Shown: positions 41,464-60,023 of the stretch, piece after piece
Numbering within the stretch: the stretch's first letter is position 1
How the letters are laid out: each line of letters opens with the position of its first letter
Assembly: GCA_902536085.1 (NCBI GenBank)
Contig: CACAWF010000002.1
Location: 17,226 to 81,225 of the forward strand
DNA length: 64,000 nt
Direction: 5' to 3'
Source: an uncultured Pelagibacteraceae bacterium
Lineage (GTDB): Bacteria > Pseudomonadota > Alphaproteobacteria > Pelagibacterales > Pelagibacteraceae
Program-made: the position numbers and the translations under genes
Notes under the pieces: generated by a model
Told to the model about the DNA's origin: nothing
What the model saw: the letters and a program-made list of their open reading frames with translations, nothing else
The model's database searches: none

Positions 41464-41706
41464 TTATATAATTTCGACTTTGTATTTCTTTAAGATCTCT
41501 ATACCTTTTTTAAACGAGCTAAAATCAATAATATCATCAGTTTCAAAAGTGATTTTATATTCTTCCTCTAGCGCTGATATTAAAGTCATGTGTCCTATAG
41601 AGTCCCACTCGTCAACCTCATTATATTTTATTTCCTCAGAAAATTTAGAATTGTCTAAATTTAATGCAGATTTAAATACTTTAGAATAATTTTCTATATT
41701 ACTCAT
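41464..41706 (-). CDS. Acyl carrier protein
   Basis: EWDSIGHMTLISALEEEYKITFETDDIIDF: phosphopantetheine DS motif. Confidence 0.92.
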   Translation of the reverse strand: MSNIENYSKVFKSALNLDNSKFSEEIKYNEVDEWDSIGHMTLISALEEEYKITFETDDIIDFSSFKKGIEILKKYKVEII

Positions 41707-42694
41707 TATTTTTTAAATTTTTTATTTCTAATAGAATTTCATTTACAATCAAATTCGCATCTAATTTGAATTTTTTTTTAAGAAAATCATAATCTCCCCC
41801 TTTTGTATACCTATCATCTATACCATAAGAAATCATTTTGGGTGTATTTTCTAATTTTGCAAGACACTCTGAGATAGCTGAGTTTAAACCTCCATATAAA
41901 TTATGTTCCTCAATACAAATTATTAATTTATTTTTTTTTACAAATTCTTTAATCATGTTTTCATCTATTGGTTTTATAGTATGAAAATTTATTACTTCAG
42001 CAAAGATTTTTTTTTCCTCTAATTTTTTTGAAACAGCTAAAGCTTCACCTACCATTTGGCCAGATGAGACTATAGTTAGATCGCTACCTTTTTTAAGTGA
42101 AATTGCTTTTCCTATTTTAAATTCATAGTCTTCCTCATAAACCTGCTGAATTCCAGAGCCTCCTGTTAACCTTATATAAACAGAATTTTTATGATTAAAA
42201 CTAGCTAGCAAAGCTTTAGCTAATTCAGCAGAGTCTGCCGGAGAAATTATTGTAATATTAGGTATTGATCTCAATACACCTACATCTTCAATACAACAAT
42301 GAGTATATCCAAGATTTCCTAAGACTAGTCCACTCGCTAGACCAACCATGCAAATTTTTTGATTCATATAACCTAAATTTACTTTAATTTGCTCACAACA
42401 TCTCATGGTTTGAAAAGGTGCGAAAGTTGTAGTAATTACATTAAATCCTTCGCTTGATAAGCCAGTTGCGATACCGATAAGATTTTGCTCCGCAATGCCT
42501 ACATCTATATATTTCTCAGGAAATTTTTTCTTAAATCTATCAAGACCTGCTGAGGTAGAAACGTCAGCAGTTAATATAATTAAGTTTTTTTCTTTTTGAC
42601 TAATTTCTTGAGCAATTATGCCAAAACTCGCTCTCATTCCAAGTTTAGACCAAATTTTGAAATTGTTTTTACTCAAAAATTTATTCTGATCCAT
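41699..42694 (-). CDS. Transketolase, C-terminal half (split enzyme)
   Basis: RASFGIIAQEISQKEKNLIILTADVSTSAGLDRFKKKFPEKYIDVGIAEQNLIGIATGLS. Confidence 0.93.
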   Translation of the reverse strand: MDQNKFLSKNNFKIWSKLGMRASFGIIAQEISQKEKNLIILTADVSTSAGLDRFKKKFPEKYIDVGIAEQNLIGIATGLSSEGFNVITTTFAPFQTMRCCEQIKVNLGYMNQKICMVGLASGLVLGNLGYTHCCIEDVGVLRSIPNITIISPADSAELAKALLASFNHKNSVYIRLTGGSGIQQVYEEDYEFKIGKAISLKKGSDLTIVSSGQMVGEALAVSKKLEEKKIFAEVINFHTIKPIDENMIKEFVKKNKLIICIEEHNLYGGLNSAISECLAKLENTPKMISYGIDDRYTKGGDYDFLKKKFKLDANLIVNEILLEIKNLKNNE

Positions 42695-43505
42695 TTAATT
42701 CCTTAATTGCTATATCATACTGGCTCTTAGTAAGTATTTTATGATGCCAGTCATTATTATTCTCTGAAAACTTAAAACCCTTGCCTTTAGTTGTTTTTGC
42801 AAGAATTAATTTAGGCTTGTTAGATTTTATATTAAAGGCTTTGATCAAATCATCTGTATTATGTCCATCAATTTCAACTACATGCCAATTAAAACTTGAC
42901 CATTTTTTTGCTAAACTGTCTGAAGTCATAATTTCCTGATTAGTACCAGTTTGTTGTAAGTTATTATTATCTAGAATTGCTGTTAAATTATTTAATTGAA
43001 AGTGAGGAGCGGACATAGCTGCTTCCCAAACTGAACCTTCATTACACTCTCCATCTCCAATTAAGACATAGGTAGAAAAGTTCTTTTTTCTTTTTTTTGC
43101 TGCCAGAGCAACGCCTATTCCAAGAGATAGTCCCATTCCAAGGCTTCCGTTTGAAAACTCAATTCCAAATTTTTTATTAATCACCGGATGACCTAATAAA
43201 AAACTGTCATTTTTTTCAAAAAGCTGTAGTTCCTTTTTAGAAAAAAAACCTTTTTCAGCAAGAATTGAATAATAACCTAAACAGGCGTGACCTTTACTTA
43301 GTATAAATCTGTCTCTATCTTCCCACAAAGGATCGTCTATTTTATATTTTAAAATTTCTTCAAAAAGAGCTACTAAAATTTCTACGGTTGATAATGATCC
43401 GCCGAAATGTGAGCTACTTGCTCCAGCAGCTAAAGATGTGTCCAGGATGCTTTTTCTTATTTTTTTGCACATCAGACTTAATTTTTTTCTTTTTTCGATC
43501 ATCAA
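42681..43505 (-). CDS. Transketolase, N-terminal half (split enzyme)
   Basis: RFILSKGHACLGYYSIL, GSLGMGLSLGIGVALAAK, IGDGECNEGSVWEAAM. Confidence 0.93.
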   Translation of the reverse strand: MMIEKRKKLSLMCKKIRKSILDTSLAAGASSSHFGGSLSTVEILVALFEEILKYKIDDPLWEDRDRFILSKGHACLGYYSILAEKGFFSKKELQLFEKNDSFLLGHPVINKKFGIEFSNGSLGMGLSLGIGVALAAKKRKKNFSTYVLIGDGECNEGSVWEAAMSAPHFQLNNLTAILDNNNLQQTGTNQEIMTSDSLAKKWSSFNWHVVEIDGHNTDDLIKAFNIKSNKPKLILAKTTKGKGFKFSENNNDWHHKILTKSQYDIAIKELNGSE

Positions 43506-43508
43506 AAT

Positions 43509-44249
43509 TTAATAGCCTCCAGTAATATTAATTACCTCACCGTTGACATAACTCGACATGTCAGAAGCCAAAAATAATACTACATTTGCAACTTCTTCAG
43601 GGCTTGCTACTCTTTTTAAAGGTATTTTTTTTATTGCTTCTTCAAGAACTTTTTTATTTATTCCTTTTTCGATCATTCTAGTATTTGTAAGACCTGGGGC
43701 AACGGCATTTACCCTAATATTAAAAGGTCCTAATTCTTTAGATAATGACTTCGTAAAACTATTAATCGCAGATTTACTTGCAGCATATATTGATCTTCCT
43801 GCATCACATTCGGTTGCTGCATTAGAAGAAATATTAATTATAGATCCATTTTTATTTTTCATGAATATTTTTAAAACACCTCTAATAAGATACAATGCAG
43901 AAAAAAAATTCACTTGAAAAACTTCTTTGATTTTTTCATTAGTGGTCATTTGAAATAATGATACTTGGTCAACACCAGCATTATTCACTAATATATCTAT
44001 ATTTTTATTACAATTTAAGATCATTTCAATTCCCTCTTTAATTTCATTCTCACTATTCAAATCGAAGTAAATAGGAATAATTGAATTATTGTATTGATTA
44101 GAGAGCTCTTTTATTGATTTTTCAAATTCACTATTTTTTTTTCTCGCACAACAAATTATATCTGAGCCATTCTCTGAAAATTTTTTTATCAATGAAAGGC
44201 CTATGCCTCCGTTGCAACCTGTAATCAATGATGTTTTTTTTTCTAGCAT
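43509..44249 (-). CDS. SDR oxidoreductase (3-oxoacyl-ACP reductase-like)
   Basis: SLITGCNGGIGLSLIKKF, NNAGV, YAASKSAINSFTKSLSKEL, SYVNGEVINITGGY. Confidence 0.93.
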   Translation of the reverse strand: MLEKKTSLITGCNGGIGLSLIKKFSENGSDIICCARKKNSEFEKSIKELSNQYNNSIIPIYFDLNSENEIKEGIEMILNCNKNIDILVNNAGVDQVSLFQMTTNEKIKEVFQVNFFSALYLIRGVLKIFMKNKNGSIINISSNAATECDAGRSIYAASKSAINSFTKSLSKELGPFNIRVNAVAPGLTNTRMIEKGINKKVLEEAIKKIPLKRVASPEEVANVVLFLASDMSSYVNGEVINITGGY

Positions 44250-44254
44250 TATAG

Positions 44255-45400
44255 TTAAAACCTTAGATCTTGAAATTCCTTATTATTATTCTTTTTAAAA
44301 TTAAAACTAATTATTTTTTTTATAATTTTTTTTGAAACCAATTTATCATTTTTATTAATTTTTAAAAAAGTATTTCTTCTTTTTAGTTTTCTTAAATTTT
44401 TTAAAATATCTTTTTTTTTAAATTTACATGAAATAACTGAAGACGGTTTATCTCTTCCTTTTTGCCTATCACCAAGATTAATAGACGTAGTTGAAAATAA
44501 TGGAACCTCTGAAATTCCACTTGAAGAATTCCCAATGACCCCATCGATATATTTCAATAATGATAGATATCCTTTAGTTCCTAAATTCTTCACTAAAGTA
44601 AAGTTTTCTCTCTTTTTGATAAAATTTTTGATTAATTTTATCATAGCAACACCTCCAGCATCGGCGTTCGGTGCAGTTATTATGATTTTAGTATCTTTTA
44701 AATTATCTAAACAATTTAGGACGAGCTTTAAATTATGCAAGTTTTCTCTAATAGAGGTTTTTTCAGGATGAAATGTCATCAAAATATTTTTCTTTAAAAG
44801 TTTCATTTTAAATTCATTTTGAAATTCTGTTTTAGAAAAAAATTTAGTATTAGCAATTTTTTGTCTATTTAAACTACCAAAGTTAAAAACAGTTTTAGTG
44901 TTTTCTCCAAGTTGAATAATTCTTTTCCTGTATTTGTTAGAAGTAGGAAAGTGTAGATTTGAAAGTTTAGTAATTGAATGTCTAAAACCTTCATCTAATG
45001 AGCCTGAAGTTTTTTCCCCTCCAGCAATATGAACTATAGGTATCTTTAAAATATAAGCCGAAATAGTTGCTGCAAGCATTTCATATCTATCGCCAAAAGT
45101 AACAAATATGTCAGGATTAATTTTTTTTAAAGACTTAGAATATTTTTTCAAAAAACTTGAAAAAGATAGTAAAACTGAGAGTGAATTTTTATTCCTTTGG
45201 TTTGAAAAGGCTTTTACTATTTTTAATCCTTTTTTAAACTGGATCTCCTTTAAACTTTTTCCAAAAAAACTATCATTATGATTTCCTGATATTAATAAAA
45301 AGGTTTTAAAATATTTTTTATTTTTTAAAGTTTCGTCAACAATTATTTTAATCATTCCGAAATCTGCTCTAGACGTAGTAATAAAACAAATTTTTTTCAT
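44255..45400 (-). CDS. neuC: UDP-N-acetylglucosamine 2-epimerase (hydrolysing), NeuC/LegG-like
   Basis: ICFITTSRADFGMIKIIV, TFGDRYEMLAATISAYILKIPIVHIAGGEKTSGSLDEGFRHSITKLS. Confidence 0.92.
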   Translation of the reverse strand: MKKICFITTSRADFGMIKIIVDETLKNKKYFKTFLLISGNHNDSFFGKSLKEIQFKKGLKIVKAFSNQRNKNSLSVLLSFSSFLKKYSKSLKKINPDIFVTFGDRYEMLAATISAYILKIPIVHIAGGEKTSGSLDEGFRHSITKLSNLHFPTSNKYRKRIIQLGENTKTVFNFGSLNRQKIANTKFFSKTEFQNEFKMKLLKKNILMTFHPEKTSIRENLHNLKLVLNCLDNLKDTKIIITAPNADAGGVAMIKLIKNFIKKRENFTLVKNLGTKGYLSLLKYIDGVIGNSSSGISEVPLFSTTSINLGDRQKGRDKPSSVISCKFKKKDILKNLRKLKRRNTFLKINKNDKLVSKKIIKKIISFNFKKNNNKEFQDLRF

Positions 45401-46419
45401 ATTTTAATTAATTCATCAAATTGAAAATTTTTTTTGGCAATCTTACCTATGACAGAATTTATCAGCATTGGTGAAATTCCATTACCAGGTCTTTTAGCTG
45501 TAATATTGCTCCGAGTGAATTTTTCTCCTTTTAGTATTTTACGATTAGCAACTAAAGAGTTTCTAGCAATTATAATGTTTTTTTTCTCACTTTTTGTTGC
45601 AATTTTTTTTCCGTTTCCAAGTGCTGTTTCTAATTGTTTTATTTTTTTAACTAACATTTTGAGGTCTTCTTCTTCAATGCTTGCCTTATGATCGGGACCT
45701 TTTGATGACCTATTCAAAGTAATGTGTTTTTCGATAACTTTAGCTCCCATTGCAACTGCCCATAAGCTAGCATCTATACCTAAAGTATGGTCAGAGTAAC
45801 CAACATCAATATTGAATTTTTTTTTGAATGTCTGGATTACTCTTAAATTTACATCTTCTAAAGGAGTAGGATATTCTGTATTACATTGCATAACTGTAAT
45901 TTTCTTTTTAGGTGTTCCATTTTTAATTAAAATTTTTATGGCTTTCTCAACTTCGTAAATATTAGACATTCCTGTTGAAATAAGTATCTTTTTTTTTAAT
46001 TTTCCTATTTTAACAAGATAAGGCAAATTAGTTATTTCTCCCGATGGGATCTTAAAAAATTTCATTTTTAAAGATTGCAAAAAATCAATTGATTGAAGAT
46101 CAAAAGCTGTAGAAAGAAAATTTATTTTTTTTTTGATACAATATTTTGAAATTTTTCTAAAATCTTCATATGACAAAGAAATCTTTTTTGACATTTCTAA
46201 TTGATTTTGTTTATTTCCAGTATTTTTAATTTGGTATTTTGCTTTTACTGCGTACTTTGAAATATGCATAGAAGGAATAGAAGTTTGAAATTTAATAAAA
46301 TCAGCTCCACATCTTTTAGCCATATCTACAAGCTTATAAGCAAGCTTAATATTTCCATTATGGTTTACACCAGCCTCAGCAATTATGATAGTTGGAAAAA
46401 TTTTTTTTTTAAGACTCAT
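45397..46419 (-). CDS. neuB: N-acetylneuraminate synthase family, NeuB/LegI-like
   Basis: IIIAEAGVNHNGNIKLAYKLVDMAKRCGADFIKFQT, ISTGMS, GYSDHTLG, EKHITLNRSSKGPDHKASIE, SAF-like C-terminus. Confidence 0.95.
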   Translation of the reverse strand: MSLKKKIFPTIIIAEAGVNHNGNIKLAYKLVDMAKRCGADFIKFQTSIPSMHISKYAVKAKYQIKNTGNKQNQLEMSKKISLSYEDFRKISKYCIKKKINFLSTAFDLQSIDFLQSLKMKFFKIPSGEITNLPYLVKIGKLKKKILISTGMSNIYEVEKAIKILIKNGTPKKKITVMQCNTEYPTPLEDVNLRVIQTFKKKFNIDVGYSDHTLGIDASLWAVAMGAKVIEKHITLNRSSKGPDHKASIEEEDLKMLVKKIKQLETALGNGKKIATKSEKKNIIIARNSLVANRKILKGEKFTRSNITAKRPGNGISPMLINSVIGKIAKKNFQFDELIKI

Positions 46420-47053
46420 TTTTTTTTATAACTTTCCTTTGATAATCAATAACAGAAGAGTTTTTTAATAAATTTGAGGTTAAAGTACTTCCTATACCGA
46501 TTTTACAGTTCTCTTCGATTTTCAAATTTTGTAAAATTTTAGCACCTGATCCGATAAGTACTTTTTTTTCAATTGTACAATTCCCTCCTATTGATACTGA
46601 AGGCATTATTGTCAAAAAATCTTGAGCGCATAAATTATGACCTATATCGCAGAAGTTACTAACAACTGAATAGTTGCTAAGCTTAACTTCAAAACTAATA
46701 TGAACATTATTAAAAATTATATTTCCTATGCCAAGTTTCAAACATGGTGGAATGTGTATGTTGGGATGTATAAGGTTTGGAATTTTATACTTATTCTTTT
46801 TTATTTCTTTTTCAAATATTTTTTCTCTTAATGACGGACTCATCATGCCTGTAATAGCATATAGATTTTTTCCAACTGGTTTATTTTTTTGTGAGAACAC
46901 TTTTAATTTATCTAAAGTCTTGATTTTTGAACTTAATTTTTCGTCAACGTATCCGATAACTTTCCAAACTTTTTTTTTTTTATTTATTTCCTCTATTAAT
47001 TGATAAACCTCTCTTCCTGCAGGACCTGCAGAAAATATTAGTATTTTTTTCAT
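46409..47053 (-). CDS. neuD: Sugar O-/N-acyltransferase, NeuD family
   Basis: LIFSAGPAGREVYQLIEEIN then hexapeptide repeats; overlaps neuB-like start. Confidence 0.85.
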   Translation of the reverse strand: MKKILIFSAGPAGREVYQLIEEINKKKKVWKVIGYVDEKLSSKIKTLDKLKVFSQKNKPVGKNLYAITGMMSPSLREKIFEKEIKKNKYKIPNLIHPNIHIPPCLKLGIGNIIFNNVHISFEVKLSNYSVVSNFCDIGHNLCAQDFLTIMPSVSIGGNCTIEKKVLIGSGAKILQNLKIEENCKIGIGSTLTSNLLKNSSVIDYQRKVIKKNES

Positions 47054-47063
47054 AATAATAAAT

Positions 47064-48122
47064 TTAGCTGATTTCTTCCTCTGAAAAAATATCTTTAGCT
47101 AAAGATGGATTAAAAATAGTTTGTTTCTCTTTCGTCATAAATTTAGAAATGAAATCTTTATCCTCTCCAGCTAAGCAAAGGTTGCTGTGCTCCTTGAAAT
47201 ATTTTATTCTAAATCCAAAATCTACAATTTCTTTCAAAGGTTGCTCTAAAATATTGCCAATTTTAATATGAACATATGGACAAACTAAAACATCTCCCAG
47301 CGGGGTTATATAAAGCCTATTAACAGTTGTGCAGCCTAATATTTTTTCATTTTTTCTATCAAAAGGATTCCATAAATTTCTGACAAGATTTCCATATTTT
47401 TTTCTTAAGTTTTGAATATGTTTTCTATCTTTCTCATCACAAATAATTTCCTCCATTTTCTGCCACATGCCTGCCGGGACAGCTACGTTTAAAAGAGTTC
47501 TATATTTTTTTTGTTTTGAATATTTTAATAATTCCTCAAAATCTGGATTGAAAGCATTATAATGACCAACAGTGATATTTAAATAAGGGTCCATGCCAGC
47601 TTTTTGAACATGCTCCAGGGCTTCAATAGCTTTTCTCCAAGAATCCTTTCTTCCTCTAATTTCATCATGAGTTTTCTCATCCATACTATCAATACTTACA
47701 GATACTCTGCTCACTTGATAATCAGCCAGTTTTTTCGCCATTTTCTCATCTAAGTAAAAACCGTTTGTAGTTAAATATAAATAGAACCTCTCTGGCTTTA
47801 TAGCCTCCAATGTTTCAAACAATAAGTCAGGTCTAAGAAGTAATTCACCTCCCTGTAAATCAAATTCGAAATATCCTAATTCATCAGCCTGGTCGGCGAG
47901 ATTTCCAATTACTTTTGGGGAAAGGTACTCTTTTACATGGTCGCCCTTAGGAGAATTTGTAAAACAGTATTTGCATCTTAAATTACAAGCATTGTTTAAA
48001 TTTAAGTCTATACCTCTAGTTTTTGTCCCAACTTTTCCATCATTTTTATTTACATAGTTGTAAAAATCTCGAAGTTTCTTCACTAGTTTTGGTTTTTTTA
48101 ATAATGGAGAGTTTAAAGGCAT
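47064..48122 (-). CDS. Radical SAM/SPASM protein
   Basis: LNLNNACNLRCKYCFTNSP, FDLQGGELLLRPDL, C-terminal CPYVHIKIGNI. Confidence 0.92.
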   Translation of the reverse strand: MPLNSPLLKKPKLVKKLRDFYNYVNKNDGKVGTKTRGIDLNLNNACNLRCKYCFTNSPKGDHVKEYLSPKVIGNLADQADELGYFEFDLQGGELLLRPDLLFETLEAIKPERFYLYLTTNGFYLDEKMAKKLADYQVSRVSVSIDSMDEKTHDEIRGRKDSWRKAIEALEHVQKAGMDPYLNITVGHYNAFNPDFEELLKYSKQKKYRTLLNVAVPAGMWQKMEEIICDEKDRKHIQNLRKKYGNLVRNLWNPFDRKNEKILGCTTVNRLYITPLGDVLVCPYVHIKIGNILEQPLKEIVDFGFRIKYFKEHSNLCLAGEDKDFISKFMTKEKQTIFNPSLAKDIFSEEEIS

Positions 48123-48127
48123 AATAT

Positions 48128-48580
48128 TTATTTTATTTTATATTCTTTTATGACATGAGGTAATACAATATTGAAATCAGCACTGCAAGCTAGATCTCCT
48201 TTAACTTTTCCAATACCTTTACATTTTGCTACACCTCTGTTGAATGAAATAACACTCGTTTCTATGTCAAGCCTATCTTTAGGTATAATTTTTCTCTTAA
48301 ACTTTAAATTATCGGCTGAAGTAATGTAAACAATTTTACCTTTATTTCCAGGCAAAGTAAGAAGAGAAAGCGCGCACATTTGCACTAAAGACTCTATTTG
48401 AAGCATGCCGGGCATATTAGGATCTGATGGCCAATGAACTTTAAAAAACCATTCTTTAGGATCTAAATATTTATACCCTTTTGCTGATTTACCTGGGATT
48501 ACTTCTTCAACTAGGTCTATCATTAAGTATGGTGGTTTATTTTGTTGATACTCTAAGATTTCTTCTTTGGTTAGTTTCAT
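48128..48580 (-). CDS. FabZ-like 3-hydroxyacyl-ACP dehydratase (hotdog fold)
   Basis: PPYLMIDLVEEVIPGKSAKGYKYL, DPNMPGMLQIESLVQMCALSLL. Confidence 0.85.
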   Translation of the reverse strand: MKLTKEEILEYQQNKPPYLMIDLVEEVIPGKSAKGYKYLDPKEWFFKVHWPSDPNMPGMLQIESLVQMCALSLLTLPGNKGKIVYITSADNLKFKRKIIPKDRLDIETSVISFNRGVAKCKGIGKVKGDLACSADFNIVLPHVIKEYKIK

Positions 48581-48581
48581 T

Positions 48582-49766
48582 CTATTTGTAAGTTACTTCT
48601 CTTGATAAAGATTTAATTACATCATATCCATCCCACACTAGATCTATTTCTAATGATTTGCCTATAGGAACTATACGGTCAACACCAAGGAGATTGTATT
48701 CTAGGACAAAATTTTTAAATTCATTTTTACTAATACCATAATAAGTTATTGTTTGGCATTTCTTTGATACGTAATCTTTTAGTTCTGATAATTTACTAAT
48801 ATTTTTTTGAAAGAAAGTTCCGTTAACACCTCTTATATTTTCAATGGAATTTAGTTTTTTTTGGGATGAAACTACAAACAAATTGTTATTTTTTAAATAC
48901 TTCACCTCTGAAAAGTTTTTGTTTTTAATAACATTTGAAAGTAGATTTGTATACTTTTCTACCGCTTGAACTTCATCAAATTTGAATTTGTTTTCAACAA
49001 TTTTATTTAATTTTCCCCAAAATTTGTTTTGAAATTTTAAGTCTTTTTTTCCTAACCAAAAAATAAAATGTGGAGAATTACACGCTTTTTGACCCATTAC
49101 ATAGCCGTCATAGAAGAAATTTTTTATTAATAATTCAAGATATTTTTCATTTTGTTTTTTTAATTTATCAATATTAATTATTGAAAAAGAATATCTATCA
49201 CTAAAGGTCACCTCTATAGTTCTCTCAGGTATCCAGTTTTTTCTGATTTCATTTATTGTTTTGTCTCCTCCCCAAATAATTCTGGCATCGCATATAGATG
49301 AGAGATATTTTGTAATGTTATCATCGGAAGAATATTCTATAAAGTGGTTTGACTCCTTTAAAACTTTATAAATCTTTTTTTTAAATAATCTATTGATGAT
49401 TGATAAAATTATTTTTTTTTCTTTAAAATCTTTACTAGGAATTTTAACTACATTTGAATTTCCGCTTAATAAACCAAATATAAAAGAGTATACAAAATTT
49501 GTCGGTACATTTGACGGGCAAATATGGAAAGCCAAACCTCTGCCCACCACTAAAAAATTTTTTTTTTTTGATTTTATTTTTTTTACTTGTTTATTACACC
49601 AAAACATAAGATAAATTAAATCCGGGTGTCTCATGGCATTTTTGTCTTTTTTTATTTCATTTGAAAGATCATTTAAAAAATTCAAAGATAAAACATTATA
49701 AGCTTCGAATGTTTTTACTTTAAAATTTTTATTTAATATTTCTTTAGTTGAATTAGATGACATCAC
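48582..49766 (-). CDS. LuxC-like acyl-CoA/acyl-ACP reductase
   Basis: GRGLAFHICPSNVPTNFVYSFIFGLLSGNSNVVKIPSKDF, FYDGYVMGQKACNSPHFIFWLG. Confidence 0.9.
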   Translation of the reverse strand: MMSSNSTKEILNKNFKVKTFEAYNVLSLNFLNDLSNEIKKDKNAMRHPDLIYLMFWCNKQVKKIKSKKKNFLVVGRGLAFHICPSNVPTNFVYSFIFGLLSGNSNVVKIPSKDFKEKKIILSIINRLFKKKIYKVLKESNHFIEYSSDDNITKYLSSICDARIIWGGDKTINEIRKNWIPERTIEVTFSDRYSFSIINIDKLKKQNEKYLELLIKNFFYDGYVMGQKACNSPHFIFWLGKKDLKFQNKFWGKLNKIVENKFKFDEVQAVEKYTNLLSNVIKNKNFSEVKYLKNNNLFVVSSQKKLNSIENIRGVNGTFFQKNISKLSELKDYVSKKCQTITYYGISKNEFKNFVLEYNLLGVDRIVPIGKSLEIDLVWDGYDVIKSLSREVTYK

Positions 49767-50820
49767 TGCAACCTCTCATCTCAGCCTCTTTTGCTCTTCC
49801 ATAAATTTTAAAATACTTTCCTTTAAGACCACATTTACAATCATCTTCTCCAATTATTTCACCAATATCCTCTGTTAAAATATTATGACCAGGATAACTT
49901 GTAGGCAAAACTGATAATAGTTGTATTAAACCCTTCGATTTTTTACCTAAAACTCTAAATTTACTATCCCTGATAATTATATCTGAAAAAATTGAAGTGT
50001 GAAAATAACCGCATTTACTTGACTCAAAAAATATCGATCCAGTCTGCTCAACTAACCCGTAATAATTAAAAATCTTATCAAGATTTAATTTTGTTTTTAG
50101 TTTTTTTTTAAAATTCTTGTTACTTATTTTTAAGTTTTCCATCCTTTTCCAACCTCCCCCATGCACAAGTATACCTTTGTTAAAATCATAAGATTTTTTT
50201 TTTATATTAATATTATTAATTAATTTTTCAAAAATCATACTTGTAAATCCAAAAATTAAAAATTTTTCTTTTCCATAAAGATTTAAAAATTTCGATAAAT
50301 TATCAAAATCAATTTTATTTTCTTTATTGAGTAAGTAGGAATGATTTTTTCCAAAGATTGAAAATCCATAAATAGCTGCTGATTTCGCGTTCAAAATATT
50401 CCTATCATCTAAATTTGGATTTCTATCTACTATAAGCATTGGTAGTCTTTTATCACTAACCATTTTTTGAAAAATTGTGTCTAAAGCTTTTGTTTGAGCT
50501 AACGCGTTATTTTTATCCAAATAAATTTTTGAGGGATTTTGTCCAGATGTACCCGATGAAATAAGTTTTTTAACAACTTTTTCTCTTTTAACACTTAATA
50601 AATCAAAATGTTTGAATAATTGAACTGGTATCATAGGGAAATCCTCTACATTATCGATTTTTTTGAGATTAATTTTTAATTTTTCAATTATATTTTTATA
50701 TTCAATACAATGTTTATAATGATGAAAAGATAACTGTTTTATTAAACTAAAAAAAATATTTTTTTTAATTAAACTGGTTGTGCTAAAAGTTTCAAAATTT
50801 TTTAGTTTTTCAATGTTCAT
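49753..50820 (-). CDS. LuxE-like acyl-protein synthetase
   Basis: DFPMIPVQLFKHFDLLSV, KLISSGTSGQNPSKIYLDK, YYGLVEQTGSIFFES. Confidence 0.9.
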   Translation of the reverse strand: MNIEKLKNFETFSTTSLIKKNIFFSLIKQLSFHHYKHCIEYKNIIEKLKINLKKIDNVEDFPMIPVQLFKHFDLLSVKREKVVKKLISSGTSGQNPSKIYLDKNNALAQTKALDTIFQKMVSDKRLPMLIVDRNPNLDDRNILNAKSAAIYGFSIFGKNHSYLLNKENKIDFDNLSKFLNLYGKEKFLIFGFTSMIFEKLINNINIKKKSYDFNKGILVHGGGWKRMENLKISNKNFKKKLKTKLNLDKIFNYYGLVEQTGSIFFESSKCGYFHTSIFSDIIIRDSKFRVLGKKSKGLIQLLSVLPTSYPGHNILTEDIGEIIGEDDCKCGLKGKYFKIYGRAKEAEMRGCSDVI

Positions 50821-52190
50821 ATCATTTTTTCTAAATATGAATAAGATATTTTTCCTGATGAATTAGTGGGTGGTTCTTTGAGATTTTTAATTCCAAGAGA
50901 ATTAGTATTTACTCTTAATTTTTTTGATAAATATTTAATCACATCTTTGTTGTTCTCTTTACTTAAGTTGAATATAAAAAGTCTATTTTTTTTACTTAAG
51001 CAAAGACACTTAAATCCTTTACTAGATAATATCTTTTCAATTTCATCTAAATTGATTCTATGACCATATAATTTTGCCTCACGATTTTTTCTTCCCGTAA
51101 TAAATAAATATCCATCTGGATCGATACTTCCAATATCGCCAGTTCCAATTTTTCCTTTATTTTCATCTCCTTTAGATAAATCTCGGTACGATTTAGCATA
51201 ACCTAAACAAACGTTCTGTCCCTCGTATATTATTTCTTTATCAGAAAGGTTTATTGATAATTTACCACCTGGAATGGCTTTTCCTGCGCTTTCAAATTTT
51301 TCATTTAATTTATCAAAGGGTACATATGATATTCTAGAGGTTGCTTCGACTTGTCCATACATAACTATAAACTTATAATTATTTATTTTTGCATCTTTAA
51401 AAAAATATTTTTTAATTTCTTTATCTAAATGACCACCTGCCTGCGTAATATATTTTAATGAAGGAATTTTTCTCTTTGTGAACTTAAGTTTTTTTAAAAT
51501 TTCATAATTGAAAGGCACTCCACCAAAATTATTGATTTTAAATTTATTAGCTTTTTCCCAAAAACTTTTTTCTAAAAAACTTGAATTATTAATACAAATT
51601 CCTGATCCTGAAAAAATGTGAGTATTCACAATAGATAAACCATAAGTATAATGTAGTGGTAATGTAGTAATAGTTATATCCTCGGGTTGTATCCGCAGAT
51701 AGTTTGATATATTTTTAGTGTTTGAATAAAGATTATTTTTTGAAATTCGTACAAATTTTTTTGATCCAGTGCTACCAGATGTTCCTATGAGTAAAGCAAG
51801 ATCCTTAAAGATTTCATAATTTTCATCTTTTTTATTTTCTAAGATGATATTTTCATTCAATTCAGAATTAATTTTATAATTATTTATTACATATATAAAC
51901 TTTTTATTAATGAAAATATATAAAGGTTTATAAGATTGTATTATTTCTTTAATATCTTTTTTGTCGGTATTTGGATCAATAAACATAATCTTTAAATCTT
52001 TTCTTATTAAAGAGATATAAGTCATTAAAAATTCTGATGAATAATTTGATATAAAAAGGCATAATTTACCTTGTTTTAGTTTATGAAATTTTTTTTCAAA
52101 AGAAAAAATTTGCTTGTATAAAATCTTGTCTTCATTTTCATAAAAAAGAATATTGTCTTGAAATTTTTCGAGATGATTAAATATTTTCAT
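50817..52190 (-). CDS. AMP-dependent acyl synthetase/ligase
   Basis: LIGTSGSTGSKKFVRIS, YGQVEATSRISYVP, GTGDIGSIDPDGYLFITGRKNREAKLYGHRINLDEIE. Confidence 0.93.
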   Translation of the reverse strand: MKIFNHLEKFQDNILFYENEDKILYKQIFSFEKKFHKLKQGKLCLFISNYSSEFLMTYISLIRKDLKIMFIDPNTDKKDIKEIIQSYKPLYIFINKKFIYVINNYKINSELNENIILENKKDENYEIFKDLALLIGTSGSTGSKKFVRISKNNLYSNTKNISNYLRIQPEDITITTLPLHYTYGLSIVNTHIFSGSGICINNSSFLEKSFWEKANKFKINNFGGVPFNYEILKKLKFTKRKIPSLKYITQAGGHLDKEIKKYFFKDAKINNYKFIVMYGQVEATSRISYVPFDKLNEKFESAGKAIPGGKLSINLSDKEIIYEGQNVCLGYAKSYRDLSKGDENKGKIGTGDIGSIDPDGYLFITGRKNREAKLYGHRINLDEIEKILSSKGFKCLCLSKKNRLFIFNLSKENNKDVIKYLSKKLRVNTNSLGIKNLKEPPTNSSGKISYSYLEKMI

Positions 52191-52819
52191 ATTTTTAAAA
52201 ACCTTTGAATTAATTTAAGCCCGTTCACACCACTTTTTTCTGGATGAAATTGAAAACCGACAATGTTGCCTGAGGAAGCAATTGCTGGAATTGAGTTTTT
52301 ATCAAAATAATAGTTGGCTTTTATGATCGAGGGATCTTTTGGATAAACACAATATGAATGAACAAAATAAAATTTACTTTTTTGATCAAGGTTTTCAAAT
52401 AAATTCAATCGGTCTTGAGATTTTTGGTTAAAACTTAGTTTGTGCCATCCGATATTTGGTACCTTAAAAAAATTTTTATCATAGTTAGGTAGTAATTTTA
52501 CTTCTCCTTTCATTAAACCAAGTCCATTATGTAAGCCAAATTCTTTACTATTTTCAAAAAGTAATTGCATTCCAAGACAAATTCCTAATAGAGGAATTTT
52601 TTTAAATTTAGGTTCGAGTATCAATTCTGTAAACTTTATAGATTTTAGCTTATTAATTGCATTGCCGAAGGCTCCAACTCCAGGTAAAACAATTTTATCA
52701 GAATTTAGAATTTCATTATAATTACTTGTAATTTTTACTTTAGCATCAAATTTTTCTAATGCTCTTTTGATGCTGAGTAAATTTCCACTTTTATAGTCCA
52801 CTATAGCAACGGTCTGCAT
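52187..52819 (-). CDS. hisH: HisH-like glutamine amidotransferase
   Basis: VAIVDYKSGNLLSIKRAL, LPGVGAFG, LLGICLGMQLLFE, GFQFHPEKSG. Confidence 0.95.
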   Translation of the reverse strand: MQTVAIVDYKSGNLLSIKRALEKFDAKVKITSNYNEILNSDKIVLPGVGAFGNAINKLKSIKFTELILEPKFKKIPLLGICLGMQLLFENSKEFGLHNGLGLMKGEVKLLPNYDKNFFKVPNIGWHKLSFNQKSQDRLNLFENLDQKSKFYFVHSYCVYPKDPSIIKANYYFDKNSIPAIASSGNIVGFQFHPEKSGVNGLKLIQRFLKI

Positions 52820-53560
52820 TTAACAATTATTTTTTTCTATGTAATCTTTAATTTCTGCTATTGAGTGGCGATTATAATGAATACTATCTGCTACAGCCAC
52901 GGCATCAACTTGACTTTTAAGCACGCTATCTAAATGTTCTTTTACACCAAAACCTCCACTGATGATTAAAGGAATACTACAAATTTCTGACGCTTTTTTG
53001 ATCAATTTGGTGTCAAATCCAGATCTTGTACCCTCTTTATCAATAGATGTTAAAAGAATTTCTCCCGCTCCAAATTCAATAGTTTGATTTATCCAATCTA
53101 GAACATTAATTCCGGTCGGTTCTCTGCCGTTACTAGTATAAACTTCCCACCAATTTTCTCTTTCTTTTGCTTCTATTGAAATTACAACACTTTGAGAACC
53201 TATTTCATTAACTAAATTTTTTATAAATTTTGGATTTTGAACCGCCGCAGAGTTAATCGCAATTTTGTCAGCCCCACACAATAAAAGATTTTTTGCATCT
53301 TCAATTGTCCTAACACCTCCACCAATTGTAATTGGTATGAAGATCTCTTGAGTAATTTTTTTTAAGATTTCTGACAAATAATTTCTTCCATATAATGTCG
53401 CTACAACATCCATCAAAATTAGTTCATCTATTCCTTGATCGTAATATTTTTTTGCAAATTCATTTGGATTGCCAACAATTCTTAAACCCTCAAGATTAAT
53501 TGATTTAATTAAATTCGAATTTTTTATATCTAATCTACCGATAAGTCGAATCGATCTCAT
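52820..53560 (-). CDS. hisF: HisF-like cyclase
   Basis: PITIGGGVRTIEDAKNLLLCGADKIAINSAAV, LLTSIDKEGTRSGFD. Confidence 0.94.
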   Translation of the reverse strand: MRSIRLIGRLDIKNSNLIKSINLEGLRIVGNPNEFAKKYYDQGIDELILMDVVATLYGRNYLSEILKKITQEIFIPITIGGGVRTIEDAKNLLLCGADKIAINSAAVQNPKFIKNLVNEIGSQSVVISIEAKERENWWEVYTSNGREPTGINVLDWINQTIEFGAGEILLTSIDKEGTRSGFDTKLIKKASEICSIPLIISGGFGVKEHLDSVLKSQVDAVAVADSIHYNRHSIAEIKDYIEKNNC

Positions 53561-53567
53561 TTCAAAG

Positions 53568-54752
53568 TTATTTTTTCCAAACAGAATTTTTTAAAGTCCA
53601 TTCATTTCCAGATTTTTGCCAAATATGGTTAGGTCTAAATTTTTCGATGGTCTCCCAAAATTGGTTTTCTGAAATTTCCATATAATTTAAACAATCTTTA
53701 AAATATTTTTTTGGAAACTCTCCATCAAACTTTTTGACTAGTAAAACTGCTTCCTCTCTTGTGATTATCTTGTTTCTAACCTCAAGCGCAGCATCTTCGG
53801 TTGCTCTTCCTCTTCCAGTTTTTATATACCAGGTGAAGTAATGTAGCCCATCTAATTTGTCGTCCAAGCTAGAGTATTTGGTGTAGGTTCCTTCAGTTCT
53901 TCCATCGGGATTAACTTGAAATCCTGTTTTTTCTTTTGCGTAATAGAAATTATTTTGTGGGTTATAATTAATAAAATCTGGGAGATGTAATAAATTAATA
54001 TCTGAATTATCTACAACATCTTTACTCACAGGTAGAAAACAATTCAATTCATGCCTATCGATTTTATATTTTTTTTGAATTTCATCTATATTTACGCCTC
54101 CTAAATAAATTTCATCATTATTGTTTCGGTAATGCCAGAACTCAGGTTTATTAAAAGACTTGGCTTCATTGTCTTTTCCAACTGCTCTTTCTTTAATAGA
54201 GTCTCCATACACGATTAATTTTATATTTTTTTCAACTGCTAATTTTAAAGGCAATGAGTTCTGCCCCAGTGCAAAAGGTTGAAATGGATGTAAAAGATTT
54301 AGAAAAGCAAGCTTTGTAAGTAACTTGTGAACTTTTTTATTAGGAGTTAAAAGGAAATTATCGAATCCATAATTTATCCACGAATTATAATTTTTCCATC
54401 CAACTTCTGTATACATCCCTGGAGCCCATGTACAAGTTAGAGGGTGCATGCCATATTTTTCTTTTAATATAATTGAAGTGTAAATACTGTCTTTGCCTCC
54501 ACTTCCAGGAACTATTACGTCATATTCTCCATTGTTTGATCTAAATTTAGATAAAATATCTTTTAAATCCTCTTCTTTCTCACTCCAATTAAAAAACTCT
54601 TTTTTCTCAAAGTATCTGCAAGATAAACAAACTCCGTCATTATCGAAAGCTGCAAATTTTTTTTGACCTCCAGGTTTATCGGTATGCTGGGCTGTGCTTA
54701 AAAATCTATGATTAGACTCAACACACTTTTTGCAAAATTTAATGTTTTTCAT
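53568..54752 (-). CDS. N-acetyl sugar amidotransferase, WbpG/PseA-like
   Basis: KFCKKCVESNHRF, VPGSGGKDSIYTSIILKEKYGMHPLTCTWAPGMYTEVGWKNYNSWI; next to hisH/hisF. Confidence 0.93.
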   Translation of the reverse strand: MKNIKFCKKCVESNHRFLSTAQHTDKPGGQKKFAAFDNDGVCLSCRYFEKKEFFNWSEKEEDLKDILSKFRSNNGEYDVIVPGSGGKDSIYTSIILKEKYGMHPLTCTWAPGMYTEVGWKNYNSWINYGFDNFLLTPNKKVHKLLTKLAFLNLLHPFQPFALGQNSLPLKLAVEKNIKLIVYGDSIKERAVGKDNEAKSFNKPEFWHYRNNNDEIYLGGVNIDEIQKKYKIDRHELNCFLPVSKDVVDNSDINLLHLPDFINYNPQNNFYYAKEKTGFQVNPDGRTEGTYTKYSSLDDKLDGLHYFTWYIKTGRGRATEDAALEVRNKIITREEAVLLVKKFDGEFPKKYFKDCLNYMEISENQFWETIEKFRPNHIWQKSGNEWTLKNSVWKK

Positions 54753-55800: not shown

Positions 55801-56571
55801 CTATTCTTTTATAGCGTTATAGTCTGTTCCGAAGTGAGGAATTTTTAACGGCGCATCTTCTTTTTTTAAGTAAGGTATTTTTTGTAGAGGGCAATACCTG
55901 TCACAAAGAATAAATCTTGCAAATCTTCTTTTAGTCGTTTTTACTGATCCGTGAATTAAAGCAGAGTGAATAAGAAGAGCTGATCCTGACTCTACTTCCA
56001 TTCTTTGTTTTTCAAATTTATTTAGGACATCTTCCTTCAAATGAGATGATCCAAGCTTATTAGAATTGGAATGTTTCCAATAACCATGTTTGTGTGATTT
56101 TTTATAAATTTCCAATCCACCTTGATCACCAATAGCATCAAATATTGGAGCCCAAATAAATAAAAAATCTTTTGCACATTGGTTTGTTTCTTGATGGGGG
56201 TCTAAAAATCTCTCATTTTCTGAGTCATGAATATGAATAGAGGGTCGTCCTGAAAAAACAACATTTGTTTTAAAATATCCTTTTACTAAATCAATTATTC
56301 TTTCATCAAACAATATTTTTAATGTATTTATATCAAATGATGTCATATCAAAAAAATGGCCTTTAAGTTTCATGCTATGATCTTTAACTTGATAGTACTT
56401 TTCTTGAAGATTTTTAATATTATCGTCGGGTTTAATATAATTTAAGATTGAGTAAAGAGACTCTTTAACACTTTCAATCTGCTCATTGGTAAATAAATTG
56501 TCTAGTTTGCAGAAACCATTATCGTCAATTTCCTTAAATATTCTATTTTTTTCCTCTTTTGAATATTTCAT
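55801..56571 (-). CDS. Phytanoyl-CoA dioxygenase (PhyH) family protein
   Basis: DDNGFCKLDNLFTNEQIESVK-like N-terminus, DPHQETNQ (HxD/E iron ligand region), LIHGSVKT distal His. Confidence 0.82.
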   Translation of the reverse strand: MKYSKEEKNRIFKEIDDNGFCKLDNLFTNEQIESVKESLYSILNYIKPDDNIKNLQEKYYQVKDHSMKLKGHFFDMTSFDINTLKILFDERIIDLVKGYFKTNVVFSGRPSIHIHDSENERFLDPHQETNQCAKDFLFIWAPIFDAIGDQGGLEIYKKSHKHGYWKHSNSNKLGSSHLKEDVLNKFEKQRMEVESGSALLIHSALIHGSVKTTKRRFARFILCDRYCPLQKIPYLKKEDAPLKIPHFGTDYNAIKE

Positions 56572-56573
56572 AA

Positions 56574-57383
56574 TTATTTATGTTCTAATTTTTTAAATTT
56601 CCAATTAGGATTATTTATATCATGATAGAAATTACTGCAAACATATCTCATCTTATTTTTTGTTTTATTTATGCCACTTTTATGCATTAATTTTTTATTA
56701 AAAAATATTGCTTCTCCTAAATTACAATAAATTTCTTTTTCTTTAAATTTAAATCCATTATTTAATATTTTTACGTTATGATTTGCTCTTAATATTTGTT
56801 TTTTTTTTAATTTTTCTTTTTCAACTTTAGTATGACTTGTTTTTATATCGTAGTTAAAGCTTTTATCTAAAATATGCAATCCTCCTAGATTCTTGTTAAT
56901 ATTTGTAAAAACTGGCATCCATACTTGCACAAAATCGGAGTCCTTAATATTGCTTTTATCGTCTTGGTGCCATCCATAAACATAAGGAGTTATTCCTGGT
57001 GTATCCATACGAATTGATGAACTATTTATATATAAATTTTCATCATACTCTCTTTCCAAAAGATAGTTTAAAACTTTTGTAATATTTTTATCGGAAATTA
57101 CATTATAGTAATTACTAGATTTTACTATTTGATCATACAACTCTGATAAATATTTATGATTTGATTTCTCTAAATAAATCATTCCTTTATTTAATAAAAA
57201 CTCGACTTTTTTTGATTTATTTTTAATGTTAACTGAATAGTTTAAATTTTTCTTTAAAGAAACTTCGATCATTTTAGCAAAGTTTTTTTTCAGCAATAAC
57301 AATTTCTTTTTATCAATACAATTAACCTTCACATAACCGTGCTTTTTAAAATTTTCCTTTAAGAATTGCATGTTATTTTTCAT
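56574..57383 (-). CDS. Phytanoyl-CoA dioxygenase (PhyH) family protein
   Basis: YGWHQDDKSNIKDSDFVQVWMPVFTNINKNLGGLHIL, MHKSGINKTKNKMRYVCSNFYHD. Confidence 0.85.
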   Translation of the reverse strand: MKNNMQFLKENFKKHGYVKVNCIDKKKLLLLKKNFAKMIEVSLKKNLNYSVNIKNKSKKVEFLLNKGMIYLEKSNHKYLSELYDQIVKSSNYYNVISDKNITKVLNYLLEREYDENLYINSSSIRMDTPGITPYVYGWHQDDKSNIKDSDFVQVWMPVFTNINKNLGGLHILDKSFNYDIKTSHTKVEKEKLKKKQILRANHNVKILNNGFKFKEKEIYCNLGEAIFFNKKLMHKSGINKTKNKMRYVCSNFYHDINNPNWKFKKLEHK

Positions 57384-58508: not shown

Positions 58509-60023
58509 TTAATAGTAAGAAATTAGGCTTTTTCTATTTTTGTTGTTTCGTATTCTTTTGTCTAAATAATAAGAGTCGGATTTTATATGTTTTGAACTTA
58601 TTTCCTCAATTACTGCACCATCTTTAGATAAAGCTTTAAATTCATGGATCATTCCTTTCACTATCGTAAATGTTTCTCCAGAATTCATTATTTTTTTTTG
58701 AATTTTACCTTTAAATTTTATTTTAAGCATGATTCTTCCAAAGAGAATTAAAAATGTTTCTTGTTTTATCTTATGGTATTGCGCAGGATGTTTCTGATTT
58801 TTTAGCATAAATAAATATTTTTTACAGTAAGACTGATTAATTACTGTAATCATGCTCAGACCGTATTTAAAAAAATTATTTATTCCATAGTGATGTGAAA
58901 TTTCAATCCTAGATAAATTTGGCACAATAATATTAGCTAATGATGCTAAAGTTCTTATCTTGTTTCTAATAATTGAAACTTTATTTCTAGGATTTTTAAT
59001 AGATAAATTTTTAACCATAATCCTTTCACTATCATCAAGGTTTTTTTTCATTACTATTTCTGAGAATTTTGAAAAATTATTTGCAGTAAGTTGCCCTTTT
59101 ACTGCAGGAAAATTAAAAGTAATCGATTTTTCTTTTAAAGTTGTGCCTCTTTTTATATCCGAAATTTTATTCTTATAAACTCCTCTTTGAAAATTTCTTA
59201 ATTGTCTCTTTTCTATAGATAAATTTTTATCTCTACCTTTCACAGAACCAACTTGCTCAATTGTTTTTTCTAAAAATGATAACCATTTTTGCATTTGGTT
59301 AGAATTAACAGAGTATTTATTTAACCTAATTTTACCTTTGCTAACACCTATATGTTTTTCAAAAATTCTTGCGCCCATTGAGAAGCCTATTGCTCCGGAC
59401 AAAAATTCATTCGGTTCTTCATGAAGAGAAATTCCAGCTATTTTTTCTCTATGAAACTTTCTCATTTCTTGAAAGTATATTAAATTAAGATCATTTGATT
59501 GTGTTGGATATTTTGCAACGCAATATAAAAACTGAACTTTCATTTTTCTAGTAGAAAAAAAACTAATCACACTCGATATTTCATCTTTATTAAGCCCCCC
59601 AAGACTACAAATAATTTTTTTATTTTTTGCTTTTTTGGCAATATACTCAATCAATGGCCAATCTGTTGAAGAACAACTTGCTATTTTAAGATAGTCAAAC
59701 TTATCTTTAACCACGTTGTCTACAGAGATTTCATCGAATGGAGTACAAATTAGCTTAAACTTTGAACGGCTAAAATTTAGAATTTGTGACCACTGCTTTT
59801 TTGTTAAAAAGGTACTTTTAAATCTTTTAACATGTTTATCATCACTATTAATAAAACTTTGATGAATAAATGTTTTTGGATCTCTATATTGAAATTTTAA
59901 TGCAAAATCGATTTTATTTTTAAATTTTTTAGTCAGCTTATAATAGCTTTTTATAATAAGTTTTGCATGTGCTATGCTCCCCATATGATTGTTTGCTAAC
60001 TCAAAAATTACTAAAGGTTTCAT
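58509..60023 (-). CDS. NeuB/SpsE-family synthase with C-terminal cupin-like extension
   Basis: VIFELANNHMGSIAHAKLIIKSYY, ALKFQYRDP, CSLGGLNKDE, ISLHEEPNE, EKHIGVSKGKIRLNKYSVNSNQM; C-terminus IMNSGETFTIVKGMIHEFKALSKDGAVIEEIS. Confidence 0.88.
   Translation of the reverse strand: MKPLVIFELANNHMGSIAHAKLIIKSYYKLTKKFKNKIDFALKFQYRDPKTFIHQSFINSDDKHVKRFKSTFLTKKQWSQILNFSRSKFKLICTPFDEISVDNVVKDKFDYLKIASCSSTDWPLIEYIAKKAKNKKIICSLGGLNKDEISSVISFFSTRKMKVQFLYCVAKYPTQSNDLNLIYFQEMRKFHREKIAGISLHEEPNEFLSGAIGFSMGARIFEKHIGVSKGKIRLNKYSVNSNQMQKWLSFLEKTIEQVGSVKGRDKNLSIEKRQLRNFQRGVYKNKISDIKRGTTLKEKSITFNFPAVKGQLTANNFSKFSEIVMKKNLDDSERIMVKNLSIKNPRNKVSIIRNKIRTLASLANIIVPNLSRIEISHHYGINNFFKYGLSMITVINQSYCKKYLFMLKNQKHPAQYHKIKQETFLILFGRIMLKIKFKGKIQKKIMNSGETFTIVKGMIHEFKALSKDGAVIEEISSKHIKSDSYYLDKRIRNNKNRKSLISYY

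Follow-up and report, generated by a model that had tools for sequence, protein, structure and literature searches.

What does a SAR11 bacterium make with a gene run that joins LuxC- and LuxE-type proteins to a split transketolase and a dedicated acyl carrier protein (ACP)? The window, meaning the whole stretch of 64,000 nucleotides analysed here, comes from an uncultured Pelagibacteraceae bacterium and lies on contig 2 (CACAWF010000002.1, positions 17,226 to 81,225) of a 72%-complete genome of 759 kb in 32 contigs; the relatives of the window that are named in public contigs are also Pelagibacteraceae. All of the genes named by the first-pass annotation are found in the list of open reading frames (ORFs), on the minus strand from 52190 to 41464. 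Nine of these genes are one cassette, with the core order AMP-dependent ligase, LuxE, LuxC, FabZ-like dehydratase, radical SAM/SPASM enzyme, short-chain dehydrogenase/reductase (SDR), TktN, TktC and ACP. The analysis establishes the gene identities, the conservation of catalytic residues, the co-inheritance, a positional replacement and the one-sided grouping of LuxE. We lean slightly towards a reading in which the nine core genes are one mobile pathway whose product is a hydroxylated short acyl group, extended by two carbons on the way, that is built on the dedicated ACP and passed to an N-acyltransferase for a cell-surface sugar.

Conservation of the cassette in SAR11

Of 297 genomes sampled from the order of the window, 24 (~8%) encode LuxE; among the 150 of good quality the count is 14. 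Inspection of 23 neighbourhoods showed that the nine-gene order is held in nearly all of them as far as the contig reached, with varied flanks. A second scan, of GTDB genome contigs and anchored on the radical SAM protein, provided 47 loci, all from Pelagibacteraceae; the two sets share genomes and their counts are not additive. The nine core genes are complete in 29 of the 47 loci and in every SAR11 locus of at least 20 kb (24/24). With loci excluded where the contig ends, adjacency is found for ligase and LuxE in 27/29, LuxE and LuxC in 37/37, LuxC and FabZ in 41/42, FabZ and radical SAM in 44/45, radical SAM and SDR in 38/46, SDR and TktN in 42/46, TktN and TktC in 43/44, and TktC and ACP in 36/41. 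A few SAR11 loci (L107, L122) carry a rearranged cassette. Comparison of close pairs indicates purifying selection on the cassette genes, which is strongest on the radical SAM gene, with a ratio of nonsynonymous to synonymous divergence of 0.01–0.03 in four pairs. The first-pass annotation had proposed that these genes form a functional cassette and had named random co-occurrence across SAR11 islands as grounds for abandoning it; co-occurrence is not random, and the proposal is borne out.

Within two pairs of loci (L079/L083 and L115/L116) the synonymous divergence shifts abruptly along the cassette, for example from 0.4–0.5 in LuxE to FabZ to 1.1–2.9 in radical SAM to ACP, pointing to recombination within the cassette. 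Carriage by phages was also considered and rejected: the viral contigs searched contain no close relative of the radical SAM protein, the best being partial matches of 20–39%, and no relative of LuxC.

Predicted gene products

Neighbouring ORFs either overlap by 4–14 bp or are spaced within ~10 bp. The cassette is headed, as in the other SAR11 loci, by a 457 aa AMP-dependent ligase (50817..52190; PF00501, 77.8 bits against a cutoff of 29.9) whose predicted role is to charge the ACP with the finished acid. The next gene encodes a LuxE-type acyl-protein synthetase of 355 aa (49753..50820; PF04443, 181.8 bits, cutoff 24.9), which aligns with the solved LuxE 7xc6 and, as expected for the family, conserves the acyl-carrying cysteine of the C-terminal R-G-C motif across an 89-row alignment. 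It is followed by a LuxC-type acyl reductase of 394 aa (48582..49766; PF05893, 86.8 bits, cutoff 21), a predicted aldehyde producer in which the family's nucleophilic Cys in Q-x-x-C is conserved across 84 rows. Neither protein approaches the NCBIfam equivalogs for bioluminescence, which act on long-chain fatty acids: LuxC scores 54.1 bits against a cutoff of 750 and LuxE 66.5 against 550.

The FabZ-like hot-dog dehydratase (48128..48580, 150 aa) matches the FabA-like family PF07977 at 68.4 bits (cutoff 23); it scores 99 bits against the NCBIfam FabZ equivalog cutoff of 113, and its catalytic His and Glu are conserved in a 72-row alignment. The radical SAM/SPASM enzyme (47064..48122, 352 aa; PF04055, 105.2 bits, cutoff 29.5; PF13186, 27.3 bits, cutoff 21.5) is a predicted oxidoreductase. 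The three cysteines of its Cx3Cx2C motif (C46, C50, C53) are invariant in 19 copies, in keeping with the family, and the protein is 64–89% identical across SAR11. It had been listed earlier as one member of the gene run among others, which understates its place, as it is both a core gene and the most constrained one. Assignment of a function by fold was attempted and set aside: the nearest structures are SkfB, viperin, MoaA, PqqE and anSME, with nothing specific among them, and the model is of moderate confidence (predicted local distance difference test score 68). The radical SAM alcohol dehydrogenase BtrN is matched by sequence at an E-value of only 0.003 and is not among the 50 best folds listed.

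Downstream lie a FabG-like SDR (43509..44249; PF13561, 191.7 bits, cutoff 27), a predicted ketoreductase, and the two transketolase subunits. TktN (42681..43505; PF00456, 149 bits, cutoff 22) is the N-terminal, thiamine diphosphate (ThDP) subunit, and TktC (41699..42694; PF02779 Transket_pyr, 105.4 bits, cutoff 27; PF02780 Transketolase_C, 87.2 bits, cutoff 25.9) is the C-terminal subunit, with an altered acceptor site. The last gene overlaps tktC by 8 bp and encodes the dedicated ACP of 80 aa (41464..41706), whose serine for phosphopantetheine lies in a motif, W-D-S-x-G-H-M, that is conserved across 88 rows. The gene families named from the ORFs alone thus held in the hidden Markov model check, where all but this short ACP (PF00550, 19.9 bits against 20.8) pass their Pfam cutoffs.

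Active site of the split transketolase

The closest solved structures for both subunits belong to the split transketolase of C. hydrogenoformans (6yak for TktN, 6yaj for TktC). The catalytic residues H26, H66, H100, H261, E411 and H473 are conserved, as in transketolases, and relative to the E. coli enzyme TktC retains R358, S385, E411 and H473. The phosphate and alpha-hydroxyl site of the housekeeping (sugar-phosphate) enzyme, formed by H461, D469 and R520, is missing from the cassette copies of TktC: H461 is replaced by A or G and D469 by L or F in 70 of 70 aligned copies (some representing the same genome twice), and the R520 region reads YIRLTG without the Arg. The C. hydrogenoformans split enzyme differs in keeping the equivalents of all three residues, and in the accessible part of its description it is not connected with Lux genes. 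H461, D469 and R520 are likewise kept by the full-length transketolase of the window (4430–6412), an internal control with all canonical active-site residues.

The changes at H461 and D469 were considered as a signature of the cassette and rejected, since 26 other split transketolases of the same phylum (L170–L195) have lost both residues in nearly all cases. Only the loss of a basic residue near R520 and a one-residue insertion look specific to the cassette. The honest reading is that TktN/TktC is a specialised, non-housekeeping transketolase; its residue changes do not point to this particular acceptor. Evolved E. coli D469T/R520Q transketolases accept non-phosphorylated and even carboxylated aldehydes (PMC5073344). 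In a scan of 399 genomes, the top three relatives of TktC outside the window's own (268–292 bits) all come from LuxE-linked cassettes, and the next scores 197 bits. The many Pseudomonadota split transketolases without the H461/D469 sugar-phosphate residues may be a set of specialised carboligases in their own right.

Cassettes outside SAR11 and the LuxE tree

Most LuxE loci in the Pseudomonadota sampled consist of a simple set of ACP, SDR, ligase, LuxE and LuxC, often beside NeuB. Seven loci outside SAR11 add a thiamine carboligase to this set. Five of them, from Gammaproteobacteria and Rhizobium (L057, L068, L126, L130, L131), encode ACP, ligase, LuxE, LuxC, FabZ, a GMC oxidoreductase, a protein like the gluconate-2-dehydrogenase-3 subunit (G2DH3), TktN and TktC, without the radical SAM enzyme; L126 belongs to a Rhizobium strain. 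The small partner of the GMC protein is above the Gluconate_2-dh3 cutoff in L131 and slightly below it in L130; the copies in L068 and L126 align with the others without a match of their own to this model. Two of these loci (L130 and L131) have the order FabZ, GMC, small subunit, SDR, TktN, TktC, which parallels FabZ, radical SAM, SDR, TktN, TktC in SAR11, and the radical SAM gene therefore occupies the GMC slot. Among the loci compared, the GMC pair is absent from all SAR11 loci and the radical SAM gene from all GMC loci. This is an apparent non-orthologous replacement of one oxidation module by the other.

A radical SAM cassette is also found in an alphaproteobacterium of another order (G547), split over two contigs (L049 and L145); L049 ends, and L145 begins, within an apparently single AAC(3)-type gene. 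When these contigs are counted as one, all 7 cases with FabZ in the non-SAR11 sample also have a thiamine enzyme, and FabZ is found in 0 of ~17 loci without one (Fisher 1.7e-5, uncorrected for kinship), which is indicative of a tie between the two. A LuxE tree of 45 rows has a branch (support 89/84) that separates the thiamine-enzyme cassettes from the core-only LuxE proteins. The radical SAM type is a single group (99/99), and the GMC group is poorly supported (46/18).

Another type of thiamine carboligase cassette is present in L050 (3724–7070), also one of the seven loci, where FabZ has an IlvB-type ThDP enzyme and NeuB as neighbours and these genes precede ACP, ligase, LuxE and LuxC.

The neuCBD insert and candidate recipients of the acyl group

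Between the radical SAM and SDR genes of the window lie three genes on the minus strand. These encode a NeuC/LegG-type epimerase (44255..45400; TIGR03568, 359.5 bits, cutoff 235.9), a NeuB/LegI-type nonulosonate synthase (45397..46419; TIGR03569, 454.8 bits, cutoff 399.65) and a NeuD/PglD-like hexapeptide acyltransferase (46409..47053; TIGR03570, 130.3 bits, below the cutoff of 160.8). The interleaving with neuCBD had been taken as a defining trait of the cassette. This is not supported, and membership of neuCBD in the cassette is rejected: just 5 of the 47 loci have neu genes at this position, NeuD alone being present in two of the five, and the remaining three have NeuB/NeuC on the opposite strand. 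The insert is a passenger or partner of the cassette and not part of its core.

The suggestion that the acyl group may reach a nonulosonic acid fared better. LegC scores 452.4 bits against an NCBIfam cutoff of 420 and, with NeuB and NeuC also above theirs, identifies the sugar here as legionaminic-type. A candidate for the LegH-type N-acyltransferase that would take the acyl group from the ACP is the NeuD-like protein, and a PglD-like acyltransferase gene adjoins the ACP gene in GMC-type cassettes.

Directly upstream of the AMP-ligase, a set of HisH, HisF/WbuZ-like and WbuX N-acetyl sugar amidotransferase genes (52187–54752) is likely to serve acetamidino modification of a nonulosonate. Two PhyH-type dioxygenases follow in succession at 55801–57383. 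In ~9 of 43 SAR11 loci a homologous gene is found no more than 170 bp from the ACP gene, and in L049 the two are adjacent, which suggests an optional hydroxylation. The gene at 58509–60023 encodes a 504 aa protein of the NeuB family whose C-terminal part has a weak match of D-lyxose-isomerase type; it is close to cytidylyltransferase and class III aminotransferase genes, a putative second nonulosonate-like pathway.

Proposed pathway and alternatives

In the scheme that we favour, LuxE would adenylate malate or a related small (di)carboxylic acid and hand it to LuxC, which would reduce it to a semialdehyde. The split transketolase would add a two-carbon ketol unit to this semialdehyde, the FabG-like SDR would reduce the resulting ketone, and the AMP-ligase would place the remaining carboxylate on the ACP. 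The presence of two adenylating enzymes would be explained because LuxE would supply LuxC for the reduction and the AMP-ligase would supply the ACP. Further oxidation or dehydration could be carried out, at some point in the scheme, by FabZ together with the radical SAM enzyme or, in other lineages, with GMC and G2DH3. The recipient of the acyl group in the window would probably be the LegH/NeuD-like protein and the product an N-acyl form of the legionaminic-type nonulosonic acid; in other loci the acyl group would go to another amino sugar. We infer the substrates, the order of the reactions and the final acceptor, and the logic of the pathway is plausible. It had been suggested earlier that the LuxC aldehyde is lengthened by the split transketolase, an idea that the present data support. 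Two-carbon extension and acyl delivery had been offered as alternatives; both are retained here, probably as two steps of one pathway.

Mass arithmetic allows a comparison with known flagellin glycans. For the simple module, reduction of malate at C4 and then of the aldehyde would give 2,4-dihydroxybutanoate, the acid that has been assigned to RfbL of V. cholerae (PMC12208996). The computed mass of a pseudaminate residue with one acetyl swapped for dihydroxybutanoyl is 376.148 Da, and that of the acyl residue is 102.032 Da. A. piscicola AH-3 has an island with ACP, FabG, ligase, LuxE and LuxC, and its reported units include a pseudaminate derivative of 376.14 Da as well as a 102 Da moiety left unassigned (PMC7874193). 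The C4 dihydroxyacyl fits both units by exact mass, although O-methylglyceryl equals dihydroxybutanoyl in mass and isomers are not separated; no link between these masses and a C4 dihydroxyacyl was found in the literature passages covered. With the transketolase, two carbons would be added to the semialdehyde, and reduction would then give 2,4,5,6-tetrahydroxyhexanoate, whose O-methyl acyl form on pseudaminate has a computed mass of 450.185 Da. The flagellins of T. denticola bear a 450.2 Da glycan (PMC9481697), equal in mass to pseudaminate plus the predicted C2-extended, O-methylated acyl.

Several points weigh against this scheme. As a linear sequence it leaves FabZ and the oxidoreductase without an obvious substrate. 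The acyl acceptor is uncertain because the NeuD-like acyltransferase is missing from many SAR11 cassettes. One of the seven loci outside SAR11 (L056) has TktN/TktC without FabZ or either oxidoreductase, and the losses at H461 and D469 in the control split transketolases weaken the active-site argument. The mass matches leave isomers unseparated. The parallel with T. denticola also draws on an acyl structure, 2-methoxy-4,5,6-trihydroxyhexanoyl, that Kurniyati et al. reportedly assigned in 2017.

The alternative that survives best, at about one chance in a few, places all steps on the ACP. The ligase would first load the dicarboxylate, and on the tethered molecule the free carboxyl would be reduced and then lengthened by the transketolase. 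FabZ would dehydrate a 3-hydroxyacyl intermediate and the radical SAM or GMC enzyme would oxidise an alcohol, so that an unsaturated or keto acyl would result instead of a simple polyol acid. FabZ-family enzymes work on ACP thioesters, and here the catalytic His/Glu pair is conserved, FabZ is found only alongside a thiamine carboligase, and the genes for TktC and the ACP overlap. Against this, malate loaded through C4 would present an alpha-hydroxy aldehyde to a transketolase that has lost the recognition residue D469, as other split enzymes have too, and we know of no precedent for the action of LuxE on a tethered acid.

Decoration by a fatty acid is improbable. Here FabG, FabZ and the ACP would shape a fatty acyl and LuxE/LuxC would yield a fatty aldehyde for a 'liposugar', as proposed for the ACP/FabG/LuxE/LuxC sets of flagellin islands (PMC7874193, PMC4875605). 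The FabZ and FabG folds are indeed present, but the cassette has no condensing enzyme, LuxC and LuxE fall far below the long-chain equivalog cutoffs, the transketolase would have no role, and the AH-3 masses fit the C4 dihydroxyacyl.

We give similarly little weight to the view that one island holds two independent activities, with an acyl module as in V. cholerae and a separate pair of split transketolase and SDR that makes a branched or higher-carbon sugar. The acyl module does stand alone in many genomes, the rearranged SAR11 loci could be read in this way, and the sfm operon of S. oneidensis has a ThDP enzyme for flagellin modification without Lux genes. The fixed order and full co-occurrence in SAR11 argue against it, as do the same gene set in other lineages and the grouping of LuxE by presence of a thiamine enzyme. 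The idea that chance brought these genes together in a hypervariable SAR11 island, which the patchy occurrence and differing flanks might suggest, is refuted by the neighbourhood data, that is by the nine-gene conservation and purifying selection, and has practically no probability left.

Relationship to known systems

The likeness to the V. cholerae O1 rfb region, proposed earlier from the ORFs, is supported. As in the rfbKLMNO genes, which serve the 3-deoxy-tetronate of perosamine, a dedicated ACP, an AMP-ligase and LuxE and LuxC activities are encoded beside amino-sugar genes. Unlike the tetronate pathway, the SAR11 cassette adds a split transketolase, FabZ and the radical SAM enzyme, and does not have the gene content of a route free of C2 extension. 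We know of no transketolase, FabZ or radical SAM gene in V. cholerae rfb. Its RfbM protein is an alcohol dehydrogenase, and in RfbN LuxE and LuxC are fused. In loci of one genus (L070–L073), LuxE lies in a single open frame of ~820–830 aa that probably runs on into LuxC-like sequence, and which we take to resemble the arrangement in RfbN.

In the Aeromonas Group II and enterobacterial flagellin islands, the genes for pseudaminate are accompanied by those for ACP, 3-oxoacyl-ACP reductase, AMP synthetase, LuxE and LuxC; the accessible parts of the reports mention no split transketolase or radical SAM enzyme and propose a fatty acid function (PMC7874193, PMC4875605). The LuxE proteins of the core-type loci sampled here fall outside the thiamine-enzyme group of the cassette. 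For sfmABCDE of S. oneidensis, the modified nonulosonate requires a ThDP enzyme together with a FabG-like reductase, both encoded beside NeuB, but the ThDP enzyme is IlvB-type and no ACP, LuxE or LuxC is described among the five sfm products (PMC3765264).

The first-pass annotation had not recognised the combination with a split transketolase and a FabZ-like protein as described. The full set was not found in the open literature, but the sub-module of ACP, FabG, ligase, LuxE and LuxC beside pseudaminate genes has been published (PMC7874193, PMC4875605). No description of ACP, LuxE and LuxC together with a transketolase, or with a radical SAM enzyme, was found in the open literature, and this is weak evidence of novelty. 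The nine-gene set and its occurrence in unrelated bacteria appear to be undescribed.

Implications for SAR11 and related pathways

A broader proposal, which we hold tentatively and at somewhat less than an even chance, is that the cassette represents a new route to short polyhydroxy acyls. It would combine LuxE/LuxC reduction with a split transketolase, use the radical SAM enzyme and GMC-G2DH3 as interchangeable oxidation modules, and explain the 376 and 102 Da units of Aeromonas and the 450 Da glycan of T. denticola. If this is right, chemical identities would be suggested for the flagellin glycan masses left unassigned in PMC7874193. LuxC- and LuxE-like proteins would gain a biochemical role beyond luminescence, and the cassettes would be an example from nature in which one slot can be filled by either a radical SAM enzyme or a flavin oxidoreductase. 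A class of pathway would also be recognised by which some of the most abundant bacteria of the ocean decorate their nonulosonic acids and amino sugars. SAR11 surface glycans are thought to be relevant to phage recognition, and given this role, variation in the cassette could affect phage host range.

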